NCBI GenBank assembly: GCA_003598975.1
Contig: QZIJ01000142.1
Span: forward strand, 1-46,388
DNA length: 46,388 bases
Direction of reading: 5' to 3'
Source: Anaerolineaceae bacterium
Lineage (GTDB): Bacteria; Chloroflexota; Anaerolineae; Anaerolineales; Villigracilaceae
This document shows positions 1,198 to 36,648 of the stretch, piece after piece. A program made the position numbers and the translations under genes. A model generated the notes under the pieces. The model saw only the letters and a program-made list of their open reading frames with translations. It was not told the origin of the DNA and did not search any database. Positions within the stretch are counted from its first letter, which is position 1, and each line of letters begins with the position of its first letter.

Positions 1198-2979
1198 ATG
1201 TCTTTGCGCACGCGGCTGATCATCTTTGTTCTGCTGTTTGGCTCCACGGTTCTGGTCAACGTTTCGGCGGTGATCTACCTGGCTCGTTCCATTTCGCAAT
1301 CGTTGAACGCCATCGAGTTGATCCGCCAGCGGCAGTTGGTGACGGTACAGATGAATGCCCACCTGCGCGATGCCGAGGCGGCCTTATATCGTTACCAGAT
1401 CAATGGAGAAGCAGGATTCAAGATCCAATTTCATGAACAATTGGAACGGTTTTCCAGCGAGATTGCACAATACCGCCTGCTGGCCAGCCAGCCTAACGAA
1501 CAGCAATGGGCGTCCGAACTGGAACGCGCTCACCAGCAGGCGTTGACCACTGGCAATGACCTGATCGACCTGCACGACAAACAGTCTGCCCAGATGGATA
1601 GTTTTATCGCCACACAGTCTGAACTCTCGGCGTTCCTGTCCAGCGAGGCGACCTCCAGCCGACCTGACAATCCCGCCTACCAGGCCAGCGTAGCGGAAAT
1701 GCATGAAGCCTCCCGTTCCATGCTGACCGCGGTGACGGGCTACCTCGCTTCTCCTGACGAAACCAAGCGCGGGCAATTCACAGACGCGGTCGTGTCCTTC
1801 CAACAGGGCATGAACGATTTTTCATCCATTATCCAAACACAGAAGGAAAAATCTTGGGCGGTGGACATCCTTTCGCGGTTCAATCAATTGAAGTTGCTCG
1901 GAACTAGCCTTATCGGCGGACGCGATTTGCAACAATCGCTCTACGCCAACTTCATTTCCATCGTATTCAACGCGGGGCAACAGACCATTGTTGGGAAGAT
2001 CCAGCCATACGAAACGAGCAGGTTCGCACAGGAACGGCAGGCCCTCTTGAACGCGGTCAGCGCGGCGAGCATGGCAAGCATCCTGGCCACCGTCGTCATT
2101 TCAGTGTTTGCCATTTTATTCATGTTTCAACTTTCACGGCAGGTCAATTCACGCGTTACAACTTTGCTCGATGGCGCGGCGCGTGTCACAGCAGGAAATT
2201 TGGAGGAACCTGTAACCATCCCTGGCGAGGATGAGTTCGGTCGGTTGGCGGTTTCTTTCAATGAAATGATGGTCGGCCTGTCCAGCCGCGAGGAACGCCT
2301 GCGCGCCTTGATCGGCAGGCTGGCGCACATCCAGGATGAAGAACGCCGCCTCATCGGTCTCGACTTGCACGACGGCCTGACGCAACTCATCATCTCCGCT
2401 AATATGCACTTGAACGCTCTGAACTCGCAGATCGGATCCAAACTGAACGCACAGTCGCTTCAATCCCTGGACGTCAGTCGGACTCTCGTTAAACAGGCCA
2501 TTGACGAGGCCCGACGCGTTATCTCCGAACTGCGCCCGACGATGGTGGATGACCTCGGCCTCGAGCAGGGACTCCGCCAGTACGTGAACGAGATTTGCGA
2601 GGAGCGCCATTGGAAGGCGGAAATCGTCACCGACACGCGCGGGTTGGAGATCGCGCCCGCGGTGCAGGCGGCCATCTTCCGCATCGCGCAGGAGGCGTTG
2701 ACCAATGTCCGCAAGCACGCGCACACGGAGCGGGTGCGGGTGGAACTTACAGCGGACGATCAAAGCCTGATGCTGCGCGTGCAGGATTGGGGTCAGGGTT
2801 TCGACGCGAATTTTATCGGTCAGGATGAAGCCCAGCATTTAGGATTAGTCAGCATGAAAGAACGGGCGCAGATGATCAATGGCGTCTGCACGATCACGAG
2901 CGAGGTGGGCAGGGGGACGCGCGTCGAGGTTCGAATCCCATTGGAGTTTTTAACGCCGAGGAGCGAACATGGAAAATGA
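1198..2979 (+). CDS. NarX-type sensor histidine kinase
   Basis: This is a 593-residue membrane sensor kinase. A first membrane helix at about 7-27 and a second at about 295-311 enclose a 270-residue extracytoplasmic helical sensor region. A HAMP segment (about 312-365) follows, then a HisKA_3 dimerisation domain with the phospho-acceptor motif RLIGLDLHDGLTQ near residue 390, and a HATPase domain (about 480-590) with DWGQGFD and GLVSMKERA. It should autophosphorylate on the H-box histidine and pass the phosphate to the regulator encoded next, with which it overlaps by 11 bases. The signal sensed is unknown. The downstream tricarboxylate transporter genes and binding protein are plausible targets. 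The ATG has no ribosome site and probably starts a leaderless message. Confidence 0.9.
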   Translation: MSLRTRLIIFVLLFGSTVLVNVSAVIYLARSISQSLNAIELIRQRQLVTVQMNAHLRDAEAALYRYQINGEAGFKIQFHEQLERFSSEIAQYRLLASQPNEQQWASELERAHQQALTTGNDLIDLHDKQSAQMDSFIATQSELSAFLSSEATSSRPDNPAYQASVAEMHEASRSMLTAVTGYLASPDETKRGQFTDAVVSFQQGMNDFSSIIQTQKEKSWAVDILSRFNQLKLLGTSLIGGRDLQQSLYANFISIVFNAGQQTIVGKIQPYETSRFAQERQALLNAVSAASMASILATVVISVFAILFMFQLSRQVNSRVTTLLDGAARVTAGNLEEPVTIPGEDEFGRLAVSFNEMMVGLSSREERLRALIGRLAHIQDEERRLIGLDLHDGLTQLIISANMHLNALNSQIGSKLNAQSLQSLDVSRTLVKQAIDEARRVISELRPTMVDDLGLEQGLRQYVNEICEERHWKAEIVTDTRGLEIAPAVQAAIFRIAQEALTNVRKHAHTERVRVELTADDQSLMLRVQDWGQGFDANFIGQDEAQHLGLVSMKERAQMINGVCTITSEVGRGTRVEVRIPLEFLTPRSEHGK

Positions 2980-3622
2980 GATCACACTGTTAATTGCCGA
3001 CGATCATCCGATGGTACGGGCAGGCTTGCGGAGCATGTTGGCGGATTCGCGCATTCGTATTGTCGGCGAAGCCAGCAATGGACGCGAGGCGCTGGAGATG
3101 GTGTCCACGCTCAAGCCTAAGGTGGCACTGATGGACATCCGTATGCCAGACATGGACGGCATTCAGGCGCTGGAGGCGATCAAGGCCGCCAAGTTGGAGA
3201 CGCGCGTCATCATGGTCACCACGTATCGAAGCACGGCGTATCTGTTGCGGTCGCTTTCGGCGGGCGCGGCGGGATTTGTGTTGAAGGATATTTCGCGCGA
3301 GGAATTATTGGCGGCGTTGTATTCCGTGGCGCAAGGGACTTCGCTGGTGGACAGCCAATTCTTGCAGGACGTGTTGCGCAGTCTCGAGAGCGCGGAGAAA
3401 ACGGATGAATCGCCTGAGGCGCTGGTGGAACCGCTCACTGCGCGTGAGATGGACATCCTGCGCCTGATGGTGGAGGGACTGACCAACCAAGCCATCGGCG
3501 ATGTGCTGGGTCTCAGCGCAGGGACGGTGAAGGGCTATGCTCAAACGGTGATGCATAAGTTGGGCACGAACGACCGTACGCAGGCGGCGGTGAAGGCGAT
3601 ACGGATGGGGTTGGTGAAGTAG
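2969..3622 (+). CDS. NarL/FixJ-family response regulator
   Basis: The 217-residue protein has an N-terminal receiver domain with acidic residues D11 and D12, the phospho-acceptor D56 in VALMDIRMPD, and a conserved lysine in FVLKD. A LuxR-type helix-turn-helix follows (about 150-217: LTAREMDILRLMVEGLTNQ). The ATG overlaps the kinase gene and has GGAG upstream, so the pair is translationally coupled. It is a DNA-binding transcription factor activated by the kinase. Its target sites are not identified in the window. The TATACC repeats upstream of the kinase are candidates. Confidence 0.92.
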   Translation: MENEITLLIADDHPMVRAGLRSMLADSRIRIVGEASNGREALEMVSTLKPKVALMDIRMPDMDGIQALEAIKAAKLETRVIMVTTYRSTAYLLRSLSAGAAGFVLKDISREELLAALYSVAQGTSLVDSQFLQDVLRSLESAEKTDESPEALVEPLTAREMDILRLMVEGLTNQAIGDVLGLSAGTVKGYAQTVMHKLGTNDRTQAAVKAIRMGLVK

Positions 3623-11503: not shown

Positions 11504-11911
11504 ATGACAAAGAAAACCACTTCGAAATCCAAGTCAACCGGTCCAGCCCGAAAATCCACGCCCGGCAGAAATTTGTTACTGACGCTCACCCTGGTGCCGT
11601 TAATCATTGGCATTTTATTGATTGGCGCCTGGGTTTTGGAGATTGACATATTCGATGAACCGCAACTTCACGTGACGGTGGGTATCCTGTTTTTCCTGCT
11701 CAGCTTTGCCATTTCCAATGTGTTGCAGAAGCGCTGGATGCTGGCAGCCGGTTGGGGACTCTTGATGGGCGCGGATATCATCATCCTGGCTTGGCTGCAT
11801 GTGTGGGCGCAGGCGGCGGCCATCGCGGTAGGCGCGGTGGGTCTTGTTTTTCTTGGGATCGAATTTTACAGGCAATACCAGGTGAACCGAAAGGAAAGTT
11901 TAAAGAAATGA
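11504..11911 (+). CDS. Small membrane protein with four helices
   Basis: This protein of about 135 residues begins with a basic, Lys/Ser-rich stretch (MTKKTTSKSKSTGPARKS), followed by four hydrophobic segments (LLLTLTLVPLIIGILLIGAW; VTVGILFFLLSFAISNVL; MLAAGWGLLMGADIIILAWL; AAAIAVGAVGLVFLGIEFY) and a charged tail. I chose the ATG at 11504 because GGAG lies 8 bases upstream. An ATG at 11486 is possible. A TATACT box at about 11456 could be its promoter. No family is recognised. It ends just before the dsr regulatory region, but no terminator is evident between them. Confidence 0.6.
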   Translation: MTKKTTSKSKSTGPARKSTPGRNLLLTLTLVPLIIGILLIGAWVLEIDIFDEPQLHVTVGILFFLLSFAISNVLQKRWMLAAGWGLLMGADIIILAWLHVWAQAAAIAVGAVGLVFLGIEFYRQYQVNRKESLKK

Positions 11912-11924
11912 TGCATGGATCCGC

Positions 11925-11961
11925 CTAAGACTTTTCTTAGGCCACTTAAAACAAGTCTTAG
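11925..11961 (+). promoter_or_regulatory. Double operator of the dsr promoter
   Basis: Two tandem 16-base palindromes: O1 CTAAGACTTTTCTTAG (11925-11940), with perfect CTAAGA/TCTTAG arms, and O2 (11946-11961), which read on the minus strand matches O1 at 13 of 16 bases. Their centres are 21 bases apart, two helical turns, so bound dimers would lie on one face of DNA. O2 ends 22 bases before TATAAT, placing the centres near -42 and -63 of the expected transcription start, typical activator positions. The same element occurs upstream of the Hmc-like operon. The 7-2-7 geometry fits a NarL-type regulator. A CRP/FNR-type protein is the alternative. Confidence 0.75.
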
Positions 11962-11983
11962 ATATACCACTTCCCAAATTTCC

Positions 11984-11989
11984 TATAAT
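11984..11989 (+). promoter_or_regulatory. -10 box of the dsr operon promoter
   Basis: A perfect TATAAT at 11984-11989 has no recognisable -35 box at the right distance (GATATA instead). The double operator occupies the upstream region. This is what an activator-dependent promoter looks like. The expected start is near 11996, giving a leader of about 220 bases before the first small gene. Confidence 0.65.
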
Positions 11990-11998
11990 GTAGCAGTG

Positions 11999-12025
11999 TT
12001 GACTGTCATTAACAATGACAGTCAA
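11999..12025 (+). promoter_or_regulatory. Perfect hairpin at the 5' end of the dsr leader
   Basis: TTGACTGTCATT and its exact complement flank AAC, making a 12-base-pair hairpin about 3 bases after the predicted transcription start. It is not followed by a T run, so it is a poor terminator. It could stabilise the 5' end of the long dsr message, or be the operator of a second, repressing regulator. Confidence 0.5.
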
Positions 12026-12217
12026 TTCGTTTAAAGACCCTTTTAGTCGTTTCACGGCTTATTACAATCATCCCAATATGAAAGGAGGCGCAACCGACAA
12101 TAGACCCCTCACGAGCATGGATCTCAAGAACAAACGCTCGGGGTCGTAGTGATCTTTCTGTTTGCATCGCTTGGTCCACAACATATCCTGTCAAACGTAG
12201 ATTTAAGGAGAAGAAGG
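12026..12217 (+). promoter_or_regulatory. Unassigned dsr leader
   Basis: About 190 bases between the hairpin and the first gene. It holds a 23-codon frame at 12078-12149 without a ribosome site, and an isolated AAAGGAGG at 12081-12088 that has no start codon at usable distance. No known riboswitch fold is recognised. It may be an RNA regulatory leader, but nothing decisive is visible. Confidence 0.3.
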
Positions 12218-12322
12218 ATGAATATCAAAATCAATGAGGATTGGCTTGCCACAATCATTGCCTTTGTCTTGCTAATCTTGGCCATGGTCAATATCATCAA
12301 TCCCGCGTGGGTCAAATTCTAA
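12218..12322 (+). CDS. 34-residue single-helix membrane peptide
   Basis: The ATG follows an excellent ribosome site (AAGGAGAAGAAGG) and opens a 34-residue frame ending 13 bases before the YeiH-type gene. The peptide has a short polar start (MNIKINEDW), one hydrophobic helix (LATIIAFVLLILAMVNIIN) and a PAWVKF end. The strong ribosome site, coupling and composition argue for a real gene. It may be a small accessory subunit of the transporter encoded next. No family is known to me. Confidence 0.65.
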   Translation: MNIKINEDWLATIIAFVLLILAMVNIINPAWVKF

Positions 12323-12335
12323 AAGGAGAGTCACA

Positions 12336-13436
12336 ATGACTACCTCAACGATTAAACAAGAACAAAAAGCCGGCCCAGGGGTGTTGAATTTCCTGGTTGG
12401 CTTGGCCATTGTCGTTGCGCTGGCTTTCCTGGCGCGCTGGTTCAAAGACCAGGTTTACGGAATCAAAGACCTGGGCGGATTGGGTATTCCGGGCAAGGTG
12501 TTGGAATTCCCGATTTGGGCTGCGCTTTTGGGGTTGATCTTCAACTACATCCTGAAGGCTATCAAGTTCTTCGAGTATCCGAAGCCTGGTTTCCGCACCG
12601 AACTGTTCCTGAAGATTGGTCTCGTCCTGCTTGGCGCAGGCATCAGCTTCAAGGTGATTGTCACAGCCGCCTCGGGCGCGATCATTCAGGGCATCATCAT
12701 GGTTGCCGCAGTGTATATGTTTAGTTGGTGGTTGGGCGGCAAGTTTGGCCTGCCGGATACCCTGCGCGCAGTCATGTCTACTGCGGTCTCGATCTGCGGC
12801 GTCTCGGCCGCCATCGCCGCCGCGGGTTCCGTGCTGGCGAAGAAAGAAGAGATCACCTACGTTACCGCTCTGGTCATCGTCACAGCGCTGCCTTTGATGG
12901 TGATTGCGCCGCTGATTGCCGGTGCGCTGAACATGCCCGAAGCAGTGGCAGGCGCCTGGTTCGGCGGCAACGTGGATACGACCGCCGCAGTGGTCGGCGC
13001 GGGCACCATCTACGGTGAGACTGCCCAGCAGATCGCCAGCATCGTCAAGCAGACCCAGAACGTCCTGATTGGCGTGGTGGCCTTCCTGCTGGCGTTGTAC
13101 TTCACCACCGTGGTGGAAGGGAAGAAGGAAAAACCCAGCGCCGCCATCATCTGGCAACGCTTCCCCAAATTCGTTTTGGGCTTCCTGGTCGCGTCCCTGA
13201 TCTTTACCTTAGGTTGGATCAATTCTGATACCGCAGGTAAAGCCATCGGCGGGATGAAAGACTGGGCCTTCTGTCTGGCCTTCGTCTGCATGGGACTCGA
13301 ACTTGAGATCTCTGGCTTCAAGAAGATGGGTTGGGCGCCGGTCATTGTGTACCTGATCGTGACGATCTTCAACACCCTGCTGGCTCTGGGTGTCTCCTGG
13401 CTGATCTTTGGCTGGCTCTTCCCCGTCAGCCTGTAG
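12336..13436 (+). CDS. YeiH-family putative sulfate/sulfite transporter
   Basis: The 366-residue protein has about ten membrane helices and the conserved loops of the YeiH/UPF0324 family, often annotated as putative sulfate exporters: IGLVLLGAGISFKVI, SWWLGGKFGLPDTLRAVMST with VSICGVSAAIAAA, AVAGAWFGGNVDTTAAVVGAG, and CMGLELEI. Placed directly upstream of dsrAB and probably in the same transcript, it is a good candidate for moving sulfite, sulfate or sulfide across the membrane. The biochemical substrate of the family is not firmly established. AAAGGAG precedes the ATG. Confidence 0.85.
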   Translation: MTTSTIKQEQKAGPGVLNFLVGLAIVVALAFLARWFKDQVYGIKDLGGLGIPGKVLEFPIWAALLGLIFNYILKAIKFFEYPKPGFRTELFLKIGLVLLGAGISFKVIVTAASGAIIQGIIMVAAVYMFSWWLGGKFGLPDTLRAVMSTAVSICGVSAAIAAAGSVLAKKEEITYVTALVIVTALPLMVIAPLIAGALNMPEAVAGAWFGGNVDTTAAVVGAGTIYGETAQQIASIVKQTQNVLIGVVAFLLALYFTTVVEGKKEKPSAAIIWQRFPKFVLGFLVASLIFTLGWINSDTAGKAIGGMKDWAFCLAFVCMGLELEISGFKKMGWAPVIVYLIVTIFNTLLALGVSWLIFGWLFPVSL

Positions 13437-13563: not shown

Positions 13564-14751
13564 ATGGCTAAGGACTCCAAAACCCCTTTGCTGGATCAAC
13601 TTGAAGAAGGGCCCTGGCCAAGCTTTGTGACAGAGATCAAGCGCGCCGCCGAAAAGAAGGATTCGGCCAAGGATTTACTGCACCAGCTTGAACGTTCGTA
13701 TATGGACCGGATCGGACATTGGAAACATGGCGGTATTGTCGGGGTAAAAGGATACGGTGGCGGTGTCATCGGACGTTATTCTGACCTGCCCGAGGAATTC
13801 CCGGCTGTGGCAGAGTTCCACACCTTGCGGGTCAACATGCCCTCCGGCTGGTTCTATACCACGGAAAAACTGCGCGAGCTTTGCGATGTGTGGGACAAGC
13901 ACGGCAGCGGCCTGACCAACATGCACGGAGCCACCGGCGATATCATCCTGCTCGGAGCTCCCACAAATGCTTTGCAGCCCTGCTTCGACGATCTGGCTGA
14001 GATCGGCTTCGACCTCGGCGGGTCGGGTAGTGACATGCGCACGCCCTCCTGCTGTGTGGGACCGGGACGCTGCGAGTATGCTTGCATCGACACCCTGGAC
14101 CTGCTTCACAGCGTCACCATGGAATTCCAGGATGAATTGCACCGCCCGATGTTCCCTTACAAATCCAAGATCAAGATATCCGGTTGCCCGAACGACTGCG
14201 TGGCCTCGGTGGCCCGCTCCGACTTTTCGGTGATCGGAACCTGGCGCGACAGCATCCGCGTGGATTCCGGTGAAGTGACCAACTATGCCAACGAAGGCAT
14301 GGATATTCAAGCGGAAGTTGTGGACCTGTGCCCGACCGGCTGCATGAAATGGGACGCGGGCGCCAAAAAACTGTCCATTGACGATGGCGAATGCAACCGC
14401 TGTATGCACTGCATTAACCTGATGCCCAAAGCCCTGCGGCCCGGCAAGGAAAAAGGTGCCACCATCCTCGTCGGTGGAAAAGCCCCAATCGTACGCGGCG
14501 CCCTGCTCTCGTGGGTGATTGTCCCCTTCATGAAGATGGAGCCACCGTACACCGAGTTCAAGGAACTGGTCCGCAAGATTTGGGAATGGTGGGATGAGAA
14601 CGGCAAGATGCGCGAACGCCTGGGTGAGTTGATCAACCGTCTGGGCATGCGCGCCTTCCTGAAGGCCGTGGACCTGCCACCCGTACCGCAGATGATCCGC
14701 GCCCCGCGCGCCAATCCCTATTACTTCTGGGATCCCGAGGAGGTGAAATAA
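13564..14751 (+). CDS. dsrA: Dissimilatory sulfite reductase alpha subunit
   Basis: The 395-residue protein is DsrA, which with DsrB forms the cytoplasmic siroheme enzyme that reduces sulfite, handing the product to DsrC. Siroheme/[4Fe-4S] ligands appear as C-x5-C (C164-C170, CVGPGRC) and C-x3-C (C208-C212, CPNDC). The inserted ferredoxin domain has C256, C260 and C277-x2-C280-x2-C283 ([15 protein letters not shown]). Length is close to the usual 400-430. AAGGAGAAAATA precedes the ATG. Its stop overlaps the dsrB start (TAATG), so the subunits are made in equal amounts. Confidence 0.97.
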
Positions 14752-15812
14752 TGGCTGGCAAAACTGACTTCGGCCCTCCTTTCTACAAGGACTTGCTGCC
14801 GCCAGTGATCTTGAAGAATTACGGGCAGTGGAAATATCACGAACGCGTGAAACCTGGCGTTCTCAAGCACGTGGCTGAATCCGGGGATGAGTTGTACACC
14901 ATCCGCGTTGGCTCTGGCAGACTGGTCAGCACCGACTGGATCCGCGATGTATGCGGCATTGCCGACCAATTTTGCGGCGGGCATCTGCGCTTTACCAGCC
15001 GCCACAACCTGGAATTCCTGGTCTCTGATAAGAACCAGGTGGAACCGCTGATCGCTCATTTGAATAAGGAAGGCTATGCTGTCGGTGGGACCGGTCATGC
15101 CATCAGCAACCCGGTCCACACCCAGGGTTGGATCCACTGCCACACGCCCGCCACCGACGCGTCCGGGATCGTCAAGGCGGTGATGGACGATCTCTACGAG
15201 TATTTCGCGGACTCGAAACTTCCGGCGTATTGCCGAATTTCACTGGCGTGCTGCTTGAACATGTGTGGTGCGGTGCACTGCTCGGACATTGCGATCTTGG
15301 GCATCCATCGCAAACCGCCTCACGTCAACCATGACACGGTACGCGCCAAGTGCGAGATCCCCAACGTGATCGCGGCCTGCCCGACCGGCGCGATCCGCCC
15401 CGACCCGAAGGAAAAGTCCCTCACGGTGAACGAGGACAAGTGCATGTACTGTGGCAACTGCTACACCATGTGCCCGGGCATGCCGCTGGCCGATCCCATC
15501 GGTGACGGCGTCTCCATCTGGGTGGGGGGAAAGATCTCCAGCGCCCGCACGCCGCCCAAATTCTCCCGCCTGGTCATCCCGTTCCTACCCAACAATCCGC
15601 CGCGCTGGCCGGAAGTGACCAGTGCTGTGCGCAACATCGTGGAGATCTGGGCTACACACGCCCACAAGCACGAGCGCATGGGCGAGTGGATTGACCGCAT
15701 CGGCTGGGAACGCTTCTTCGACCTGACCGGCATCCCGTTCACGGTCCAACTCATTGACGACTTCACCCTCGCCTCCGAAACGTTCCGTTCCACGCCCACC
15801 TTCAAATGGTAG
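14751..15812 (+). CDS. dsrB: Dissimilatory sulfite reductase beta subunit
   Basis: The 353-residue DsrB carries the catalytic siroheme site in the alpha2-beta2 enzyme. The typical motif SLACCLNMCGAVHCSDI lies at about 164-180, and the ferredoxin domain shows CPTGAIRPD and CMYCGNCYTMCPGMPLADP. The start overlaps dsrA by one base and uses GAGGAGG inside dsrA as ribosome site. The following dsrD and dsrC and the lack of dsrEFH and dsrL here point to the reductive type of enzyme. A tree of DsrAB would settle that. Confidence 0.97.
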   Translation: MAGKTDFGPPFYKDLLPPVILKNYGQWKYHERVKPGVLKHVAESGDELYTIRVGSGRLVSTDWIRDVCGIADQFCGGHLRFTSRHNLEFLVSDKNQVEPLIAHLNKEGYAVGGTGHAISNPVHTQGWIHCHTPATDASGIVKAVMDDLYEYFADSKLPAYCRISLACCLNMCGAVHCSDIAILGIHRKPPHVNHDTVRAKCEIPNVIAACPTGAIRPDPKEKSLTVNEDKCMYCGNCYTMCPGMPLADPIGDGVSIWVGGKISSARTPPKFSRLVIPFLPNNPPRWPEVTSAVRNIVEIWATHAHKHERMGEWIDRIGWERFFDLTGIPFTVQLIDDFTLASETFRSTPTFKW

Positions 15813-15823
15813 AGAGGTGCATG

Positions 15824-16033
15824 ATGAGCGACGAAGTAACTGAGGAACTAAAGACCCAGATTGTCGAGTTCTTCAAGCAAAAAGGGAAGATGATGACCCA
15901 CCGTGATGTGGCGGGCGGACTTGGCCTGGATCAGAAGCTGGTCAAGAAAGCACTCACCGAGCTGGTCAACGCGGGCACGTTGGAGTTCACATCCTTCGGC
16001 GGCGCCACGTTCATCAAACTCCCCGAGGCGTAA
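15824..16033 (+). CDS. dsrD: DsrD, activator of sulfite reductase
   Basis: A 69-residue winged-helix protein of the DsrD family, slightly shorter than the usual 75-80. Visible are the N-terminal helix (EELKTQIVEFFKQKG), the recognition-like region (LDQKLVKKALTELVNAG) and the wing (TLEFTSFGGATFIKL). DsrD is known as an allosteric activator of DsrAB in sulfate reducers and is a marker of reductive dsr clusters. I chose the second of two adjacent ATGs (15824), which has GAGAGG at about 6 bases. 15821 is equally possible, and 15806 would overlap dsrB. Confidence 0.88.
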   Translation: MSDEVTEELKTQIVEFFKQKGKMMTHRDVAGGLGLDQKLVKKALTELVNAGTLEFTSFGGATFIKLPEA

Positions 16034-16076
16034 ACGGCCTGAGGTCAGAATTGAACTATCAAGCAAGGAGGTAGGT

Positions 16077-16394
16077 ATGCCTGTATTGAATTTAGATGGT
16101 ATTCAGGTGGATGTGGACGAGGATGGTTTCATCCAAGATCCGGCGACCTGGAACGAGGACCTCGCGGTCGCGATTGCGAAGCTGGAGGATGTTACGAACC
16201 TCACCGAGGATCACTGGAAAGTGATCAAGTATCTGAGGAATTACTTCCAGCAGTTCGGGATCGCTCCCATGATCCGTAAACTGTGCAAGGAAACCGGCTA
16301 CGATCTCAAGACGATCTACGAGATGTTCCCCAGCGGCCCGGCCAAGGGCGCATGCAAGATCGCAGGACTGCCCAAACCGACCGGCTGCGTTTAG
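16077..16394 (+). CDS. dsrC: DsrC sulfur-carrier protein
   Basis: The 105-residue protein is full-length DsrC/TusE. The flexible C-terminal arm carries both functional cysteines, C93 (GPAKGACKIAGLPKPTGCV) and the penultimate C104, exactly 11 residues apart. DsrAB loads sulfur onto these to form a trisulfide that the membrane DsrMK module later reduces. This separates it from TusE- or RspA-type relatives that lack the first cysteine. The start has a strong AAGGAGG site. A large hairpin follows the gene. Confidence 0.96.
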   Translation: MPVLNLDGIQVDVDEDGFIQDPATWNEDLAVAIAKLEDVTNLTEDHWKVIKYLRNYFQQFGIAPMIRKLCKETGYDLKTIYEMFPSGPAKGACKIAGLPKPTGCV

Positions 16395-16424
16395 TTCCTG
16401 TCCGAGTTTCGTCACCGACAATCA

Positions 16425-16479
16425 GGGATGGGAGGGGATGGATGCGCATGAACGTGCCATCTCACCAACCTCCCATCCC
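16425..16479 (+). other. Intercistronic hairpin after dsrC
   Basis: GGGATGGGAGG (16425-16435) and its exact complement CCTCCCATCCC (16469-16479) enclose a 33-base loop that can itself pair (GATGG/CCATC). No T run follows. The hairpin probably protects the 3' end of dsrC-containing transcripts or partly blocks reading into dsrM, which would yield more soluble DsrC than membrane complex. Confidence 0.6.
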
Positions 16480-16500
16480 TTCGCTTACCTTTGAGGCGCT

Positions 16501-17244
16501 ATGGAAGCAAGCGAAATCACCTGGACACTGCTGTCATTATTCTTCATTGGCCTGGCATATTTTTCGGCGTTTGCCTTTGTGGCCGGCCTGCTGTGGAAAC
16601 TGGCTGTTTACCTGCGGACGCCCATGCCGTATCCGCACTCGCTAACGCCGGGAGCCAAGACAGAAGGTCAGGCCATCCTGCGGGTGCTGGGGGATGTGAC
16701 CATCTTCCCGAACTTGTTCAAGGCCGATAAATGGCTGTGGGCCGGGGCGTGGGTTTTTCACGCCGCGCTGGCCTCCGTTCTCTTCAGACACCTGCGTTAC
16801 TTCACCTATCCCGTGCCCGGTCTGGTTTTGTATATGGAACCAGTGGCCCTGTTCTTTGGTTCGCTGTTTGGCGCGGCGATCCTCTTTCTCTTCTGGAGGC
16901 GGCTTGGCCTGCCGCGCACGCTCTACATTTCCAACATCCCGGACTATTTCGTCCTCGTTCTGCTCGGCCTGGTTGCCGCGACGGGGCTGGCTGTCAGTTA
17001 CTGGCTGCACGTCAACATCGTGGACGTAAAAGGCTTCATCGTGGGGTTGATGACCTTCCATCCCGTCGAAATTCCCCGCCACCCCCTGTTCCTTTTGCAC
17101 TTATTCTTTGTGCTTGTGTTGATGCTGTATTTCCCGTTCAGCAAACTTTTGCACGTTGGCGGCATCCTCTTCAGCCCCTCGCGCCACGAACCGTTCACGG
17201 TGCAGGGAAACGGAAGTCGTTCTCCCGATTTCATGAAACGGTAA
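16501..17244 (+). CDS. dsrM: DsrM-like membrane diheme cytochrome b subunit
   Basis: The 247-residue NarI-type protein has five to six membrane helices and histidines placed to bind two b hemes (FHAALASVLFRHLRYF; LLHLFFVLVLMLYFPFSKLLHVGG). It would exchange electrons with menaquinol and pass them to DsrK. Its position before dsrK identifies it as DsrM. It is shorter than the roughly 330 residues of well-studied DsrM, lacking the extended N-terminal part. GAGG stands upstream of the ATG. Confidence 0.88.
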   Translation: MEASEITWTLLSLFFIGLAYFSAFAFVAGLLWKLAVYLRTPMPYPHSLTPGAKTEGQAILRVLGDVTIFPNLFKADKWLWAGAWVFHAALASVLFRHLRYFTYPVPGLVLYMEPVALFFGSLFGAAILFLFWRRLGLPRTLYISNIPDYFVLVLLGLVAATGLAVSYWLHVNIVDVKGFIVGLMTFHPVEIPRHPLFLLHLFFVLVLMLYFPFSKLLHVGGILFSPSRHEPFTVQGNGSRSPDFMKR

Positions 17245-17264
17245 TTTAATCCAGTGAGACGCCG

Positions 17265-18710
17265 ATGTCCAAATTCGATGAGACTCCCATCATTAAAGAC
17301 CCCGCCATAAACGGTGTGTTGAAGCCGCCCAAACTTCGCGAACACGCCTCGGCCGAAGTGCGCTGTTATCCGAGCAAGCCCAAGGATACCGCCGCCATTG
17401 ACCTGCCCACCGAGCGCGTCCCCGATTGGCAGGAGCGCGCCATCGCCAAATTTGGTGAACTGCTCGAAAAGAACCAGGCCTTGCGCGTGTACATGGATAT
17501 TTGCGCCCGCTGCGGCGCCTGCACCGACAAATGCCAGTTCTATCTGGGGACCGGCGACCCGCAGAATTTCCCCGTCGCCCGCGCCGAATTGCTGCGAAAA
17601 GTGTACCGCCGCTACTTCACCCCGGCGGGTCTCTTCCCGGACCTCGGGGACGCGGCCGACCTCGACGAGGAGATGCTCCAGAAGTGGTACACCTACTTCT
17701 ATCAATGCTCCGAGTGCCGCCGCTGTTCGGTCTTCTGCCCGTACGGGATTGACACCGCCGAGATCACCATTGCCGCCCGCGAGATCATGGCCTCGATTGG
17801 CGTCTCCACCAAGTACGTCACCGAAGTGGTGGCGAAGGTCTATCAGACTGGAAACAACCTCGGCATCCCGCCCGCCGCGTGGAAGGACAATTGCGAGTTC
17901 CTCGAAGAAGACGTCCAGGCTGAGACTGGTCATCCCATCCGCTTCCCCGTGGACGTGCAGGGGGCAGACGTGCTCCTCGTGCCTCCCTCCGCTGATAACT
18001 TCGCCAACACCGACACGATGATCGGCTATGGAAAATTGTTCCACTACCTCGGCGTCAATTGGACCACCAGCACCTACTGTAACGAGGGCGGCAATTTCGG
18101 CCTGTTCCTCAATTTTGCCAACCTGAAAAAGGTCAACGCCCGCATCCTGCAAGCCGCCCGCGATTTGGGTGTGAAGACCATCATCTGGGGCGAGTGCGGA
18201 CATGCCTGGCGCGCGGGTATCATGACGCCTGCCCTCAACGGCCCGATGGACGCGTTCGACCCGCCCTATCCCTATCACATCAGCCAGTACATCGTGGACA
18301 TGCTTCACAAGGGCGCATTCGACGGGCGGATTGATAAATCGGCCAACGACGACTACCTCGTCACGTATCACGACCCGTGCAACTCGGCGCGGGCGGGCTA
18401 CCTCATCGAAGAGCCGCGCGAGATTATCCGTGCCGTCTGCAATCGCTTCGTGGAAATGCCCGAAGGGACGATCCGCGAGAAAACCTTCTGTTGCGGCGCG
18501 GGCAACGGCCTGCTGACCGACGAGATCATGCCCATCCGCATGGCGGGCGGAAAGCCGCGCGCCCTGGCCGTCAAGCACACGGGCGCGAACTACCTGGCCA
18601 CGGTCTGCGCGATCTGCAAGGCGCAACTGCCCGAATCCATGCACTACTGGGATGTGCCCGTCAAGGTCGGCGGCGTGATTGACCTGCTGGCGCGCGCCCT
18701 CAAACTGTAA
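17265..18710 (+). CDS. dsrK: DsrK, HdrD-like iron-sulfur subunit
   Basis: The 481-residue cytoplasmic protein has two [4Fe-4S] motifs, CARCGACTDKC (C80, 83, 86, 90) and CSECRRCSVFCPYG (about 147-158). CCG-type domains follow: GECGHAWRAG, HDPCNSARAGYL, TFCCGAGNGLL and CAICKAQLPES. These bind the unusual noncubane cluster of heterodisulfide reductase HdrB/HdrD. DsrK is the proposed site where the DsrC trisulfide is reduced. The related protein at 37387-38757 has the same architecture. The ribosome site is weak. Confidence 0.94.
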   Translation: MSKFDETPIIKDPAINGVLKPPKLREHASAEVRCYPSKPKDTAAIDLPTERVPDWQERAIAKFGELLEKNQALRVYMDICARCGACTDKCQFYLGTGDPQNFPVARAELLRKVYRRYFTPAGLFPDLGDAADLDEEMLQKWYTYFYQCSECRRCSVFCPYGIDTAEITIAAREIMASIGVSTKYVTEVVAKVYQTGNNLGIPPAAWKDNCEFLEEDVQAETGHPIRFPVDVQGADVLLVPPSADNFANTDTMIGYGKLFHYLGVNWTTSTYCNEGGNFGLFLNFANLKKVNARILQAARDLGVKTIIWGECGHAWRAGIMTPALNGPMDAFDPPYPYHISQYIVDMLHKGAFDGRIDKSANDDYLVTYHDPCNSARAGYLIEEPREIIRAVCNRFVEMPEGTIREKTFCCGAGNGLLTDEIMPIRMAGGKPRALAVKHTGANYLATVCAICKAQLPESMHYWDVPVKVGGVIDLLARALKL

Positions 18711-18724
18711 TCTCGGAGCCGATC

Positions 18725-19033
18725 ATGCGAAAAGCAGCCTTATCTCTGGTCGCCATCGGAATCCTGCTCCTGGTCGTTGCCTGGTATCCGCAATATGTGG
18801 AAAAACCTGTCAAGGATGGGAAGGGGCCGCTGGCGGTTTACCTCGATCCCAGCCTGCCCGCTCCCGAATATCACAGCCCGTTGGATTGGTGGCAGGCCAA
18901 TCACAAAAACGTGGTCAATCGCGGCGACCTGGAGAAATCCGACTGTCTGCAATGTCACGACCCTGCGACCTCGTGTAACAACTGCCACAACTACGCTGGC
19001 GTGGACGAGATCGTCCCCGCCTCCCCCGAATGA
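18725..19033 (+). CDS. dsrJ: DsrJ-like periplasmic cytochrome c, two hemes
   Basis: The 102-residue protein has an N-terminal anchor/signal helix (ALSLVAIGILLLVVAWYP), then a soluble part with two heme sites, CLQCH and CNNCH, followed by NYAGV. This end resembles the C-terminus of DsrJ. Canonical DsrJ has three hemes and about 130-150 residues. Here one CXXCH, perhaps that of the unusual His/Cys-ligated heme, is missing. It lies between dsrK and a Rieske gene and probably accepts or donates electrons on the periplasmic side. Confidence 0.82.
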   Translation: MRKAALSLVAIGILLLVVAWYPQYVEKPVKDGKGPLAVYLDPSLPAPEYHSPLDWWQANHKNVVNRGDLEKSDCLQCHDPATSCNNCHNYAGVDEIVPASPE

Positions 19034-19046
19034 CGCGGTGCAACCC

Positions 19047-19496
19047 ATGTCCACTTCCCCTTCTCCAACAACGAGACCATCCGTCTTCCAGACCCGCCGC
19101 CAGTTCATCCAACTGGGATTGGCAACCCTCGGCGCGGCCTGGCTGGGGACGCTGTTGCAGTGGCGTCTCTTCCCATCTGCCAGCGCGGCGCAGGAAGCCC
19201 AGCCCGTCTCCTTCCCGCTCGCGGATTTGCCGGTCGGCGGGACGAAGGCCATCGCCTACGGCGGAGTCCCTGCGATCGTGGTGCGGACTCCCGAAAGCCT
19301 GCGCGCCTTCTCCCTGATCTGCACGCATCTCGGCTGTACCGTGCAGTGGCAATCCGACAAAAAGGAATTCTACTGCCCCTGTCACGATGGCCGCTTCGAC
19401 GAGTTCGGCGATGTGCTGGCAGGCCCTCCGCCGATCCCGCTGGAACAGATCCCTGTCCGTGTGGAAGGGGAGACCGTCACTGTGGGCGAGGTGTAG
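19047..19496 (+). CDS. Rieske [2Fe-2S] protein, Tat-exported
   Basis: The 149-residue protein has a twin-arginine leader (TRRQFIQLGLATLGAAWLG) and a Rieske domain with both ligand loops, CTHLGC and CPCHDGRFDEFG, followed by GPPPIPL. Rieske proteins take electrons from quinol in bc-type complexes. No cytochrome b gene is adjacent. Instead it sits between dsrJ and the Qrc/ACIII-like subunits, a combination I do not know from described Dsr loci. The ATG at 19047 lies 13 bases after dsrJ. The ribosome site is poor. Confidence 0.88.
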   Translation: MSTSPSPTTRPSVFQTRRQFIQLGLATLGAAWLGTLLQWRLFPSASAAQEAQPVSFPLADLPVGGTKAIAYGGVPAIVVRTPESLRAFSLICTHLGCTVQWQSDKKEFYCPCHDGRFDEFGDVLAGPPPIPLEQIPVRVEGETVTVGEV

Positions 19497-19498
19497 CC

Positions 19499-19873
19499 AT
19501 GAAAAAATATCTCATTCTCCTCGGCGCTTTGATGCTGTGCGCGTCCATCCTCCTTTTGCTGGCGATGCCAGAACCCGCGCATGCCCTGCCCGAATACGCC
19601 GCGCAGACGGGCGAACCGTGCTCCAGCTGCCACATCAGCCCATCGGGCGGCGGACCGCGCGGACCACGCGGACAGGCCTGGGTGGCCGCGGGCAAGCCCG
19701 GCGCGATCCCCGATTTAACGGAGTCGCTGTCCCTGCTGGGAGTCGAATTGAGCGTGGATGAGGCCTATTTCACGGTGACCGCCCCCGAGGTCCCGGAGGC
19801 GGAAGCGCCCGCCGTGGCTCCCGCGCAAAGTCAGAAGTTATTCCATTGGTTGAGTCAATACGATGGCAACTAA
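19499..19873 (+). CDS. Monoheme cytochrome c-like protein
   Basis: The 124-residue protein has a cleavable signal (about 1-26, ending EPAHA) and one heme site, CSSCH, followed by a Gly/Pro/Arg-rich segment (ISPSGGGPRGPRGQAWV). The rest is Ala/Pro/Glu-rich and probably extended. A GAGG site precedes the ATG, and the stop overlaps the start of the next gene by 11 bases. It is likely the periplasmic electron shuttle or docking subunit of the neighbouring complex, comparable in role to the small heme subunits of alternative complex III. Confidence 0.75.
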   Translation: MKKYLILLGALMLCASILLLLAMPEPAHALPEYAAQTGEPCSSCHISPSGGGPRGPRGQAWVAAGKPGAIPDLTESLSLLGVELSVDEAYFTVTAPEVPEAEAPAVAPAQSQKLFHWLSQYDGN

Positions 19874-22235
19874 TCCAAAATCCAGCACGACCAACACCGG
19901 CCTTTCCCGCCGCGATTTCCTCAAACTCGGCGCGGTGACCGTCGCCGCGGGCGCGGGGCTGACCGCGTTGAAATCGGTGGACGCGCCGCAGTCGCCGCAG
20001 GCCGCGGCCGCCGAGGAGAGAATCGTCAAGACGACCTGCGCGCTGTGCCCTTCGGGTTGCGGGCTGGACGTGCGCGTGGTGAATGGCAAGGCCGTGAAGG
20101 TGGAGGGCAACCCGCTTCACCCGCTGAATCAGGGTGTGTGCTGTCTGAAGGGGCAGACCGCGCTGGAAATGCTGTACAGCCCCGAGCGGATCCAACACCC
20201 GCGCCTGCAAATGGGTGAGCGCGGCTCGGGCGATTGGAAGGAAATTCCGTGGGACGAGGCGCTTGGCCTGCTGTCCGATAAATTGACCGAGTTGCGCAAG
20301 GCGGGCAAGGCGCACACAGTCGCGCTCCTGCACGGCGAATTGCGCGGACAGATGCGGCAGACCGTCCAGCGTTTCATGCGCGCCTACGGCTCGCCGAATA
20401 TGATCTCGCGAGACAGTTTGGGCGAAGGCGCGGCGCGCATGGCGCTGTGGCTTTCGCAGGGCATCAACGGACTGCCCGTTTACGATATCAACAACGCCAA
20501 TTACGTGATGACCTTCGGCGGCAACCTGCTCGAATCGAGCCGCAACGTGATCGGTTATCTGGGCGCGACGGCTTTCATGCGCCGCGGTCGCCCGCAGCGC
20601 GGCAAACTGGTGGCGGTTCACCCGCGCCTTTCCGCGACGGGCGCCAAAGCCGACGAGTGGATTCCGATCCGCCCGGGCACGTACGGCGCGCTGGCGCTGG
20701 GCATGGCGAACGTCATCATCAACAGCGGACTGTACGACGCGGACTTCGTCCGTGATTTCACTTTTGGTTTCGACGATTTCGAAGACGCCGATGGAAATAA
20801 ACACCAGGGTTTCCAGTCGCTCGTGCTCGAGTCCTACACGCTCGAACGCGTTTCGAATATCACGGGCATTGCCACCGAGATCATCGCGCGGCTGGCGGGT
20901 GAGTTTGCCACCAACCGCCCTGCGATTGCCGTCCTGCCTACTGAAGCGGGCGAACTCTCCAGCGGCAACGCGCTTTACACCGCGCTGGCCATCCACGCTT
21001 TGAACGCGCTGGTCGGTTCGATTGACGCGTTGGGCGGTGTGATTGTCCAACGTTTTCCCGAACTTAAAGATTGGCCGACCTATTCGCTCGATGCCGCCGC
21101 GCGGACGGGCGAGTCCAAAGAACGGATTGACGGCGCTGGCATGCAATTCCCGCTGGCGCTTTCGGCGTATCAAAATGTCCCTGAGCGCGTTTTGTCGGGC
21201 AAGCCGTATCCGCTCGAAGTTCTCCTGCTCTTGAACGCCAATCCACTTTACGATATGCCGAACGACGGGCGGACGCTCGAAGCACTGACGAAGGTCCCGT
21301 TCATCGTCAGTTTTGCCTCCACCCTGGACGAAAGCGCGGCGCATGCCGACCTCATTTTGCCTGCCAGCACCTTCCTCGAAATCTGGGGCGACGACTATCT
21401 CGAAGGCACAGGCTACGCGGGCATCTCTCTGCGCCGACCAGTTGTGGAACCCGTCCACGATACGCGCAACCCAGGCGACGTTCTGCTCGACCTTGCACAC
21501 CGCGTCGGCGGACCCCTGGCGAAAGCCCTGCCCTGGAAGGATTACCAGGAACTGATTAACTATCGTCTCTCCAACTTCGATTGGGAAAAATTGGAAGCCA
21601 ATGGCAACTGGTCGGAGATGATCTATTTCAACGCCGCGCCTGGCAGTCAGGCGTGGAAGGATGTTTTGGGACGCGATCGTCTGAACGCCCCACAGGATGG
21701 ACGCTTCGACTTCTTCTCGCGCGAACTCTTCGCCCTGCTCGGTTCGGACTCCGACCTGGCCTGCCTCCCGCACTTCGAGGTTCCCGCAACCCTGACGGAT
21801 TCCACCGCCGAGGCGCTCGACTATCCCTTCCTGCTCGTGACCCAGCCGATCATCACCCAGTCTGCACAATGGCAGGGAATCATCCCCACCTTGCAGGAAT
21901 GCTACGGCCTGCAGGGATATGTCAAATGGGACAGTTGGGTGGAGATCGGTCAAAAGGCCGCGGAGGCCCTCGAACTGCACAACGGCGACCGGGTCTGGAT
22001 CGAATCGAAGATGGGACGCGTCCAGGCCGCGGTGCGAGTCCGTGCTGGGATGTGGCCGAACGCGATCTTCCTTCCGCCCGGTCAGGGACACCACACCTTC
22101 GTCCGTTGGGGCCGCCATGCAGACGACGCGTCTGTCGTGGGCGCGAATCCCAACGCGTTGAGCGGGTTCAGCACTGAACCATTGAGCGGACTGGCCGTCT
22201 GCGGCCCAACGCGCGTCCGAATTTCCCGGGTTTGA
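19863..22235 (+). CDS. Molybdopterin-fold oxidoreductase, Qrc/ACIII-like
   Basis: The 790-residue protein has a twin-arginine leader (SRRDFLKLGAVTVAAGAG), a [4Fe-4S] motif (C59, C62, C66, C93 or C94) and the complete molybdopterin oxidoreductase fold (FGGNLLESS, EWIPIRPGTYGALALGMA, LILPASTFLEIWGD, and a C-terminal dinucleotide-binding domain). At the position where Psr/Phs/Nar enzymes carry the molybdenum ligand cysteine the sequence reads GSPNMISRDSLGEG (about 176-189), without Cys. This resembles QrcB and ActB, which have lost molybdenum, although a serine ligand is possible. With the next two genes it forms a CISM-type complex. It is exported with the ferredoxin subunit. Confidence 0.85.
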   Translation: MATNPKSSTTNTGLSRRDFLKLGAVTVAAGAGLTALKSVDAPQSPQAAAAEERIVKTTCALCPSGCGLDVRVVNGKAVKVEGNPLHPLNQGVCCLKGQTALEMLYSPERIQHPRLQMGERGSGDWKEIPWDEALGLLSDKLTELRKAGKAHTVALLHGELRGQMRQTVQRFMRAYGSPNMISRDSLGEGAARMALWLSQGINGLPVYDINNANYVMTFGGNLLESSRNVIGYLGATAFMRRGRPQRGKLVAVHPRLSATGAKADEWIPIRPGTYGALALGMANVIINSGLYDADFVRDFTFGFDDFEDADGNKHQGFQSLVLESYTLERVSNITGIATEIIARLAGEFATNRPAIAVLPTEAGELSSGNALYTALAIHALNALVGSIDALGGVIVQRFPELKDWPTYSLDAAARTGESKERIDGAGMQFPLALSAYQNVPERVLSGKPYPLEVLLLLNANPLYDMPNDGRTLEALTKVPFIVSFASTLDESAAHADLILPASTFLEIWGDDYLEGTGYAGISLRRPVVEPVHDTRNPGDVLLDLAHRVGGPLAKALPWKDYQELINYRLSNFDWEKLEANGNWSEMIYFNAAPGSQAWKDVLGRDRLNAPQDGRFDFFSRELFALLGSDSDLACLPHFEVPATLTDSTAEALDYPFLLVTQPIITQSAQWQGIIPTLQECYGLQGYVKWDSWVEIGQKAAEALELHNGDRVWIESKMGRVQAAVRVRAGMWPNAIFLPPGQGHHTFVRWGRHADDASVVGANPNALSGFSTEPLSGLAVCGPTRVRISRV

Positions 22236-22255
22236 CCCGATTTTTGGAGGTAGAC

Positions 22256-22942
22256 ATGCCCCGCTGGGGAATGGTAATCGATCTGGATAAATGCTTCGCC
22301 TGTCAGAGCTGTACCGCCGCCTGCAGGATGGAGAACAACACGCCCGTCGCCGGGCAAGACCAGGCGGAAATGGGACGCGCCATTTTGTGGAACGAGGTCC
22401 TGCCGTTCGTGGAGGGGGAGTATCCGAACATCGTTGAGACGATGATTCCCCGTCCGTGTATGCACTGCGACAACCCCGCCTGCATCAAGGTTTGCCCGGT
22501 ACAGGCCACCTTCAAGAACGAGGAAGGCGTTGTGCTGGTTGATTATGACCGCTGCATCGGCTGCCGTTTATGCACGGTGGCCTGTCCGTACACGGTGCGC
22601 TATTTCAATTGGTACCAACCCGAATGGCCCGAGGCGCTCAAGGAACATTTGAATCCCGAACCCGAAGTGAAACCGCGTCCCAAGGGCGTGGTGGAAAAAT
22701 GCACCTTCTGTACCCAGCGTCTCCGCAAGGCCCGCGAGGAAGCGGAGGCGGCGGGACGCGTCTTCAACGCCACCGACTACATCCCCGCCTGCGTGCAGAC
22801 CTGCACCGGGCATGCCCGCTACTTCGGCGACCTGGACGATCCCAACAGTCTGGTTTCCAAACTGGCGCACAGTCCGCGCGCCTTCCGCCTGTTCGAGGAA
22901 CTGGGTACCCAGCCGAAGGTCTATTATTTGAAGCAAGGATAG
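22256..22942 (+). CDS. Four-cluster ferredoxin subunit (DsrO/QrcC/PsrB type)
   Basis: The 228-residue protein holds four cysteine groups for [4Fe-4S] clusters: CFACQSCTAACRMEN, CMHCDNPACIKVCP, CIGCRLCTVACPY and CTFC with a later CVQTC. It forms the electron wire between the catalytic-fold subunit and the membrane subunit. Unlike canonical DsrO it has no signal peptide of its own, as in QrcC/PsrB, which ride out with the Tat-exported partner. The ATG at 22256 has a GGAGG site. An extension to 22232 overlaps the previous gene. Confidence 0.9.
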   Translation: MPRWGMVIDLDKCFACQSCTAACRMENNTPVAGQDQAEMGRAILWNEVLPFVEGEYPNIVETMIPRPCMHCDNPACIKVCPVQATFKNEEGVVLVDYDRCIGCRLCTVACPYTVRYFNWYQPEWPEALKEHLNPEPEVKPRPKGVVEKCTFCTQRLRKAREEAEAAGRVFNATDYIPACVQTCTGHARYFGDLDDPNSLVSKLAHSPRAFRLFEELGTQPKVYYLKQG

Positions 22943-22946
22943 AGCC

Positions 22947-24284
22947 ATGCCTATCACGAACCGACACGAACAAACCATCCTTGCCCCTATCCGCCGCGTC
23001 GGCATGGGCGATTATTTGCTATGGGGTTCCCTGCTCGTCCTGATGCTGGCCGGCCTGGGCGCGTGGATCTGGCAATACATCGAGGGACTGGGAATCACCG
23101 GCATGAACCGCCCGGTCTACTGGGGAGTCTACATCACCAACTTCGTCTTCTTCATCGGCCTGGCGCACTCGGGGACGTTCATCTCCGCCATCCTGCGCGT
23201 GGCCGGTCAGAGTTGGCGCGCCCCGCTCACCCGTGCCGCTGAAGCGATCACCCTCTTCAGCCTGCCGTTCGGCGCGGGCTCCATCCTGATCGATATGGGA
23301 CATCCCGAGCGCATCCTGAATCTGATTTTCTACGGACGCTTCCAATCGCCGATCATGTGGGATGTGACCGCTGTCGGGTTGTACATGCTCTCCAGCATCG
23401 TCTTCTTTTACCTGTCCCTCCTGCCCGACATCGCCCTGTGCCGCGACCGCCTGACCGACGTCCCGAACTGGCAAAAGCGCATGTACAAAGTCCTCGCCCT
23501 CGGTTGGAAGGACAGCCCCGAGCAATACCACCGTCTCGAAAAAGTGCTGGACGGCATGGCGGTCTTCATGACCATGCTGGTCGTCACCGTGCATACCGTC
23601 GTCTCGTGGCTGTTCGGCATGACCGTCCAGCCTGGCTGGCACACCGCCCTCATCGGTCCGTTCTTCCTGCTGGGCGCCATCCTTTCAGGGACGGCGGCGG
23701 TCGTCATTGCCCTGGCATTGCTTCGCAAAGTCTATCATCTCGAAGAAGTCTTGCACAACGGCCTCTTCAACTCGCTTCGTAAACTGCTCATCACCTTCAT
23801 CCTTGGCTGGTTGTACATGATGATCGCCGAACACCTCACCATCGGTTACGCCAGCATGCACGAGGAAATGGTAGTGCTGAACGACAAGTTCAGCGGCACG
23901 TATTCGCTCGTCTTCTGGAACATGACCGTGCTGGTATTCTTTGTCCCGCTCCTCATCTTCATCTTCAAAGGCAAGAACAACGTCGGCTGGATGGTCTTCG
24001 CCTCCGTGCTGATCAACATCGGCATGTGGATGGAACGCTACATTGTCATCATCCCCACCGAAACCAGCCCGCGCCTGTTCCACGAAATGGGAGGCGGAAG
24101 TTACCTGCCCGCCCTGCCCGAAGTCCTCATCACCATTGCCTGTTTCGCGGGGCTGGTCTTCCTCTACGCGTTGTTCACCCGCTTCTTTCCGATCATCCCC
24201 ATCTGGGAAACGGCGGAGTCTCTGCCCGGCCACGCGCACAATGCGGAGCCTGCACCCGTCTCCTCGACGGCGACAGGCGATTAG
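22947..24284 (+). CDS. NrfD-family membrane subunit (QrcD/ActC/DsrP-like)
   Basis: The 445-residue protein has about ten membrane helices. Features close to ActC/QrcD are NRPVYWGVYITNFVFFIGLA, the HSGTFISAILRV motif, WRAPLTRAAEAITLF, and the late MERYIVIIP loop. NrfD subunits exchange electrons and protons with menaquinone. It occupies the position of dsrP in the cluster, but the HSGT motif and the molybdopterin-fold partner fit Qrc or alternative complex III better. The gap to the previous gene is 4 bases. The tail is Pro/Ala-rich and polar. Confidence 0.88.
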   Translation: MPITNRHEQTILAPIRRVGMGDYLLWGSLLVLMLAGLGAWIWQYIEGLGITGMNRPVYWGVYITNFVFFIGLAHSGTFISAILRVAGQSWRAPLTRAAEAITLFSLPFGAGSILIDMGHPERILNLIFYGRFQSPIMWDVTAVGLYMLSSIVFFYLSLLPDIALCRDRLTDVPNWQKRMYKVLALGWKDSPEQYHRLEKVLDGMAVFMTMLVVTVHTVVSWLFGMTVQPGWHTALIGPFFLLGAILSGTAAVVIALALLRKVYHLEEVLHNGLFNSLRKLLITFILGWLYMMIAEHLTIGYASMHEEMVVLNDKFSGTYSLVFWNMTVLVFFVPLLIFIFKGKNNVGWMVFASVLINIGMWMERYIVIIPTETSPRLFHEMGGGSYLPALPEVLITIACFAGLVFLYALFTRFFPIIPIWETAESLPGHAHNAEPAPVSSTATGD

Positions 24285-35871: not shown

Positions 35872-36648
35872 TTATTTCTCCTCGGGCGTTTGGTTTGTCT
35901 GCTGTTGCGCCAGTTTTGCCTGCATGCGGCGTCCGATGATCCAGAACAGGCCTGTCGCCAGTGTGGCGGTGCCGAGGGAGACAACGGGGAATTTTTCCAG
36001 CCAGTTCCAGGTCAGTTCGGGATACGGCTCGTCGCCCGTTGCCCCGTTGAATCCCAAAAAGTCCAACGAAACATCGGAGATATACAGCAGGGCGGTGCCT
36101 CCCGCTTCGAATTCACCGAACACGGTGGGGAGATATTTCTGCGGGAATTTGGCAATCCGTTCGTGGGCGATGGCGAGCAGGTCACTGCGCTCGCCAAAGG
36201 TAAGCACCTGTTCGGGACAGGTCTCCACGCAAGCGGGCAGTTTGCCTTCGGACAGGCGCTCGTTGCACAGGAAACATTTCCCGACGACGGGCATGGCCGA
36301 GTCCCACTCGTAGCGCGGGATGCCAAAGGGACAGGCCATCATGCAATAGCGGCATCCCATGCATTTGTCCTGATCGTATAGCACGATCCCCTCGGGTGAG
36401 CGGTACATAGCCTCCACTGGACAAGCGGAGACGCACGCCGCGCTCAGGCAGTGGCGGCAGGATTTTCGCACGAAACTCCCCTCGGGGCTCTCGGTGATCG
36501 CCAGCCAGCGATGAACGGAGAGACCGTCGGATTCCTGTTGCGGGATGTGCTTTGGGTCACCCAACTGGTTGGCGTTTACGCAGGCGTCCACGCACTTGTT
36601 ACAGCCGGTGCAACGCGTGACATCCACCAGAATGGCGGCTTGTTTCAT
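35872..36648 (-). CDS. Membrane-anchored four-cluster ferredoxin (HmcB/HybA-like)
   Basis: The 258-residue protein has four cysteine groups: CTGCNKCVDACVNAN, CRHCLSAACVSACPVEAM, CMGCRYCMMACPFG and CFLC with CVETCP. One C-terminal membrane helix follows (about 222-242, VVSLGTATLATGLFWIIG). No signal peptide is visible. It would pass electrons between the NrfD-cytochrome fusion and the other subunits. It overlaps the preceding NarI-like gene by four bases (ATGA) and abuts the next gene. The C-terminal anchor is a feature of HybA-like proteins. Confidence 0.88.
   Translation of the reverse strand: MKQAAILVDVTRCTGCNKCVDACVNANQLGDPKHIPQQESDGLSVHRWLAITESPEGSFVRKSCRHCLSAACVSACPVEAMYRSPEGIVLYDQDKCMGCRYCMMACPFGIPRYEWDSAMPVVGKCFLCNERLSEGKLPACVETCPEQVLTFGERSDLLAIAHERIAKFPQKYLPTVFGEFEAGGTALLYISDVSLDFLGFNGATGDEPYPELTWNWLEKFPVVSLGTATLATGLFWIIGRRMQAKLAQQQTNQTPEEK

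Follow-up and report, generated by a model that had tools for sequence, protein, structure and literature searches.

A probable NarL-type double operator shared by the dsr and Hmc-like operons of an Anaerolineales bacterium, and a candidate two-component system for its control

The consensus heptamer of the response regulator NarL is TACYYMT, and CRP-type sites read approximately TGTGA-N6-TCACA. Escherichia coli NarL binds as a dimer to sites of 7-2-7 architecture; napF and yeaR are activated through sites near -40 to -49 (PMC4549865), and an ogt derivative is activated by NarL from a site at -44.5 (PMC9314961). The motif of the LiaR-family regulator CesR, TCAGHCTnnAGDCTGA, spans 16 bp in a 7-2-7 arrangement (PMC4447274). 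A sulfate-reduction regulon has been predicted by comparative genomics for HcpR in Desulfovibrio and relatives; HcpR is a CRP/FNR-type protein, and DsrAB was reported to be absent from its predicted Desulfovibrio regulon (PMC545781). For dsr or Hmc-like targets in Chloroflexota, no named regulator was found in the literature searched, which makes the system described here of interest.

The window, i.e. the whole stretch of 46,388 nucleotides that was analysed (contig QZIJ01000142.1), stems from an Anaerolineales bacterium (Chloroflexota) with dsrAB, and the close relatives of its dsrA belong to Anaerolineales and other Chloroflexota, including Candidatus Desulfolinea nitratireducens. The original prediction held that a double palindromic element lies upstream of dsr at 11925-11961 and, inverted, upstream of an Hmc-like operon at 38911-38875, that the copies differ in about four bases and have unrelated flanks, and that one dimeric regulator activates both operons. 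Both copies were found at these positions. The dsr copy (copy 1, plus strand) reads CTAAGACTTTTCTTAG-GCCAC-TTAAAACAAGTCTTAG and the Hmc-like copy (copy 2, minus strand) reads CTAAGACTTTTCTTAG-ACCGT-TTAAAACAAGTCTTAG. Each 37-bp element consists of two 16-bp palindromes and a 5-bp linker, the distal operators occupying 11925-11940 and 38896-38911 and the proximal operators 11946-11961 and 38875-38890, with centres 21 bp apart in both copies. The near-identity was confirmed but not the count of differences, as all 32 operator bases are identical and the copies differ at three positions, all confined to the linker. The 60 bp upstream of the two copies are indeed unrelated, with 18 of 60 positions identical.

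Both copies end 22 bp before a perfect TATAAT (11984-11989, plus strand, for dsr; 38847-38852, minus strand, for the Hmc-like operon), and 14 of the 22 spacer positions are identical. Neither GATATA nor GGCTTC, the hexamers found 17 bp upstream of the two TATAAT boxes, resembles the -35 sequence TTGACA, and no conservation of the -35 hexamer position was seen across eight related promoters. Assuming that transcription starts 7 nt after TATAAT, at approximately 11996 (dsr) and 38840 (Hmc-like), the proximal operators would be centred near -42.5 and the distal operators near -63.5, in agreement with the anticipated geometry of two centres near -42 and -63, a -10 box and no -35 box. With an operator at or over the -35 position, both promoters resemble class II-like, activator-dependent promoters, given these predicted starts.

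Each palindrome has the 7-2-7 architecture, with inverted 7-bp half-sites around a 2-bp centre (CTAAGAC-TT-TTCTTAG; consensus CTAAGAC-NN-GTCTTAG). Inverted heptamers, the 2-bp centre and an activating site near -42 to -45 are shared with the NarL sites of napF, yeaR and ogt, and RR2, a response regulator encoded in the window, is homologous to NarL over its length. However, the half-site, approximately (C/A)TAAG(A/G)C, does not fit the NarL heptamer, and the half-site CTAAGAC, the tandem or triple sites at 21-22 bp, the sulfite reductase targets and a different sensor are the element's own. The element thus appears to work like a NarL-family site, yet not to be a NarL site. The cell-envelope stress regulators VraR, LiaR and CesR are similar in that VraR is the nearest solved relative of RR2 and the CesR motif has the same 16-bp layout, but targets, sensor and half-site sequence differ, and we know of no role in sulfur metabolism within this group. 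HcpR is comparable as a regulator with a predicted sulfate-reduction regulon, but it is a CRP/FNR-type protein whereas RR2 is of the NarL type, and the common element, CTAAGAC-N2-GTCTTAG, is not a CRP-type site. By these features, the system would belong to NarL-family two-component control.

Downstream of copy 1 lies a gene for a YeiH/TIGR00698-like permease (12336-13436, plus strand), which matches PF03601 but scores below the TIGR00698 cut-off, followed by dsrA, dsrB, dsrC, a dsrM-like gene and dsrK (13564-18710, plus strand). Beyond dsrK, the cluster continues with genes for a Rieske protein, for molybdopterin, iron-sulfur and NrfD-type subunits and for a cobB-like amidase, then hemA and a radical-SAM gene. 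The Rieske, QrcB/PhsA-like molybdopterin, QrcC/DsrO-like and DsrP-like subunits following dsrMK occupy 18777-24284 (plus strand), in the place expected for DsrJOP. Copy 2 lies ahead of an Hmc/Tmc-like complex of four genes. Its first gene (37387-38757, minus strand) encodes a DsrK/HmcF/TmcB-like iron-sulfur protein that stays below all three curated cut-offs, with 186 bits (cut-off 750) and 190 bits (cut-off 735) in the HmcF or TmcB models and 291 bits in the DsrK model (cut-off 400). The rest of the complex (34072-37349, minus strand) comprises an HmcE/TmcC-like membrane subunit, a 4Fe-4S protein and an NrfD-cytochrome c3 fusion.

In the host, whose assembly is 84% complete, and in six other dsr-bearing Anaerolineae, aprA was not found by a search that was positive in two control genomes. 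Its absence from these seven genomes suggests that they are sulfite rather than sulfate reducers, and sites upstream of sulfur genes such as sat, apr and qmo, which had been named as possible support for the original prediction, are inapplicable as proposed. Moreover, dsrA was present in 17 of 396 sampled genomes of the class, and none of the seven other examined genomes of the host's genus has dsr, the operator or a close RR2. This patchy distribution suggests transfer or repeated loss of dsr.

A 171-bp query around copy 1 yielded related elements in three other genera. In a genome-wide scan of 23 distinct dsr-bearing and 23 dsr-lacking genomes, allowing at most one mismatch, the double pattern occurred in 10 of the former and in none of the latter, and all matches were located at dsr, with additional matches at hmc in G000 and G010. 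Six further dsr-bearing genomes have weaker sites upstream of dsr; these were found by deliberate inspection of that region and are therefore less independent. Six dsr-bearing genomes of family f53 showed no TAAG-type operator, and the contig of one more (G275) is too short to judge. Upstream of dsr, the same element was seen in G035, G030, G010 and G078 and, in weaker form, in G525; the distance to a TATAAT-like box was 22 bp in every case. Families f30, f45 and f59 have sites of the forms ATAAGG...CTTAT and CTAAGG...CCTTAG, which lie before TACAAT and come up to three in a row with a 21-22 bp period. In most of nine loci with promoters of this type, TGTGA was noticed about 10 bases ahead of the TACAAT or TATAAT box and may be a regulator site or an additional promoter element.

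Taken together, the element is real and very probably an operator pair that Anaerolineae have conserved for their dsr regulon. The proposed coupling of dsr to the Hmc-like operon fared less uniformly. G010, which belongs to a second genus, carries the element at both dsr and hmc, with about 26 kb between the copies, but most relatives carry the operator at dsr only, and the Hmc-like operons of G030 and G452 lack it. The operator would thus belong primarily to dsr, and the latter two genomes indicate that the Hmc-like operon joined or left the dsr regulon within the group. In G030, two apparent XRE-type regulator genes (read by eye, approximately 11600-13100 of its locus L173) lie before hmcF in the operator's place.

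RR2 (40542-41234, minus strand; recognition helix SPKTVSVHRTNIM) is a NarL-type (GerE/LuxR) response regulator (PF00072, 3.4e-32; PF00196, 5.4e-25), and its closest solved relatives are VraR (E 2.5e-45) and NarL. The gene just upstream encodes HK2 (41197-43674, minus strand), the presumed cognate sensor kinase, with a TM segment, an extracytoplasmic domain, a second TM segment, and GAF, HisKA_3 and HATPase domains. An extracytoplasmic CLGC motif (CxxC; C259 and C262) and the GAF residues C487 and C537 are invariant in 15 orthologues of HK2. Judged by identity and gene order, RR2 orthologues (52-76%) are found in dsr-bearing genomes beside the sirohaem genes met8 and cobA and beside HK2. The gene order is met8, cobA, (epimerase), HK2, RR2, and an FGE-type gene often comes next. 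In G010 RR2 adjoins the operator and hmcF, and at two loci (L059 and L074) it lies just ahead of the YeiH-dsr operon. No clear orthologue was seen in the dsr-bearing genome G275. G070 is an exception of another kind, as its 98%-complete assembly contains HK2-RR2, with RR2 at a contig edge, and lacks dsrA and hmcF. Beside the RR2/HK2 genes themselves, no double TAAG-type operator was found in 20 relatives, except for the hmc site in G010.

The recognition helix of RR2 varies together with the operator. In genomes with the TAAG-type operator it reads KTVSVHR or KTASVHR, and in dsr-bearing f53 genomes without this operator KTVMVHR, KTVMAHR, KTILAHR or KTVITHR; the position that varies, S193 in RR2, corresponds in the alignment to the lysine of TVKVH in NarL. 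Upstream of TATAAT, three f53 dsr promoters have another motif in common, CACC[C/T]TAC...TAGG, a candidate operator for RR2 variants that carry the alternative recognition helix. In these promoters, at loci L187, L188 and L074, the motif (CAAACACC[C/T]TAC...TAGG) lies between RR2 and the YeiH gene. From linkage, co-occurrence and recognition-helix variation, RR2 is the best and a strong candidate for the likely binder of the double operator. The host genome has 13 GerE-domain matches, so that another NarL/LuxR-type regulator could bind these activator operators instead, either one encoded elsewhere or RR1 (2969-3622), a LuxR-type regulator beside its kinase within the window. This is unlikely, as matches to RR1 near dsr in relatives are at about 35-40% and mostly RR2 itself, and linkage, co-occurrence and helix variation that tracks the operator were seen for RR2 only. 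RR1 was rejected as the regulator because it is not linked to dsr in relatives.

We consider it probable that HK2-RR2 controls both operons, with phosphorylated RR2 dimers binding the double operators and activating dsr and the Hmc-like genes. Each 37-bp element would then comprise two NarL-type operators on the same face of the DNA, separated by two helical turns. HK2 would sense a signal, possibly relating to sulfite or redox state, and phosphorylate RR2, whose dimers would bind both sites, with the proximal site near -42.5 replacing the -35 box. Bound RR2 would recruit RNA polymerase to TATAAT and thereby turn on the dsr operon and, in the host lineage, the Hmc/Tmc-like complex together. 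The opposite sign of control, in which the double palindrome is a repressor operator that keeps both promoters shut until sulfite or a related signal is present, is improbable: tandem palindromic sites are also typical of repressors and NarL-family proteins can repress, but the sites lie upstream of the -10 box, near -42 and -63, at promoters without a -35 box, which should need an activator. The shared activation by one dimeric regulator that had been predicted is thus supported, as far as sequence comparison goes, by the exact repeat, the promoter geometry, the uniqueness of the element, its conservation at dsr and the pairing in G010.

The two promoters have more in common than the operator. 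A perfect inverted repeat at the start of the predicted dsr leader (11999-12025, plus strand) could form an RNA hairpin, and the Hmc-like transcript would begin with a similar hairpin with one stem mismatch (38813-38840, minus strand). A stem-loop within a few bases of the predicted start was found at both window promoters and in G035, G030, G010 (hmc) and G078. The -10 box and leader hairpin common to both promoters suggest that the Hmc-like operon received a copy of the entire dsr promoter cassette, and such copying is compatible with co-regulation. That the likeness mainly reflects copying, without maintained co-regulation, would accord with a cassette that includes the -10 box, the hairpin and a partly identical spacer, but is very improbable, as the 32 operator bases have stayed identical while linker, spacer and flanks diverged, which is expected under selection, and G010 retains both copies. 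Regarding the hairpin, the loop is of variable length and, among six sequences, two pairs have changed on both sides, which is modest evidence for a possible RNA role such as transcript protection; the inverted repeat may also be a further operator at the DNA level. An Rfam search of the dsr leader gave nothing near the gathering score.

Pattern searches of the host assembly (3.94 Mb, 149 contigs), in which the missing 16% of the genome is unseen, returned the exact sequence CTAAGACNNTTCTTAG only twice, as copies 1 and 2. The double pattern TAAGN6CTTAN7TAAGN6CTTA with up to three mismatches added two chance-like places, with two and three mismatches. A scatter of the motif inside genes would have spoken against the original prediction; in this 84%-complete assembly, the double site was confined to the dsr and Hmc-like loci. 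The single-palindrome pattern with three mismatches occurs at chance level within the window, and the significance of the element therefore lies in its exact, doubled and conserved form. Despite this chance-level occurrence of loose single sites, the view that the palindromes arose by chance or are a dispersed repeat without regulatory function can practically be dismissed, given the uniqueness of the element in the assembly, its conservation at dsr across genera and a best ungapped 37-bp match of 34/37 between the two promoter regions, compared with a maximum of 24 among 200 simulated pairs.

Activation by HK2-RR2 leads to a broader proposal, which is put forward tentatively and as a whole. 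HK2-RR2 might be a dedicated sulfite-respiration switch of dsr-bearing Anaerolineae, in which HK2 detects sulfite or the redox state by means of the extracytoplasmic CxxC and the cysteines of the GAF domain; the pair might spread and be lost with the dsr cluster, and helix and operator might have changed together between families (TAAG type against CCTA-TAGG type). The system provides a candidate dedicated regulator of sulfite respiration for Anaerolineales. With a candidate regulator named, an operator defined and a short list of targets at hand, dsr control in uncultured Anaerolineae becomes testable without culturing, and the operator can serve to detect co-regulated genes in further metagenome-assembled genomes.

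Two further features were observed in the long dsr leader. An invariant ribosome-binding-like sequence, AAGGAGG, at approximately 12080-12090 (plus strand) has no obvious long gene downstream and lies about 130 bases before a small open reading frame. The latter, 34 codons at 12218-12322 (plus strand), encodes a probable membrane microprotein (MNIKINEDWLATIIAFVLLILAMVNIINPAWVKF); in G035, G030 and G078, this reading frame and its ribosome-binding site are conserved ahead of the YeiH-like gene.
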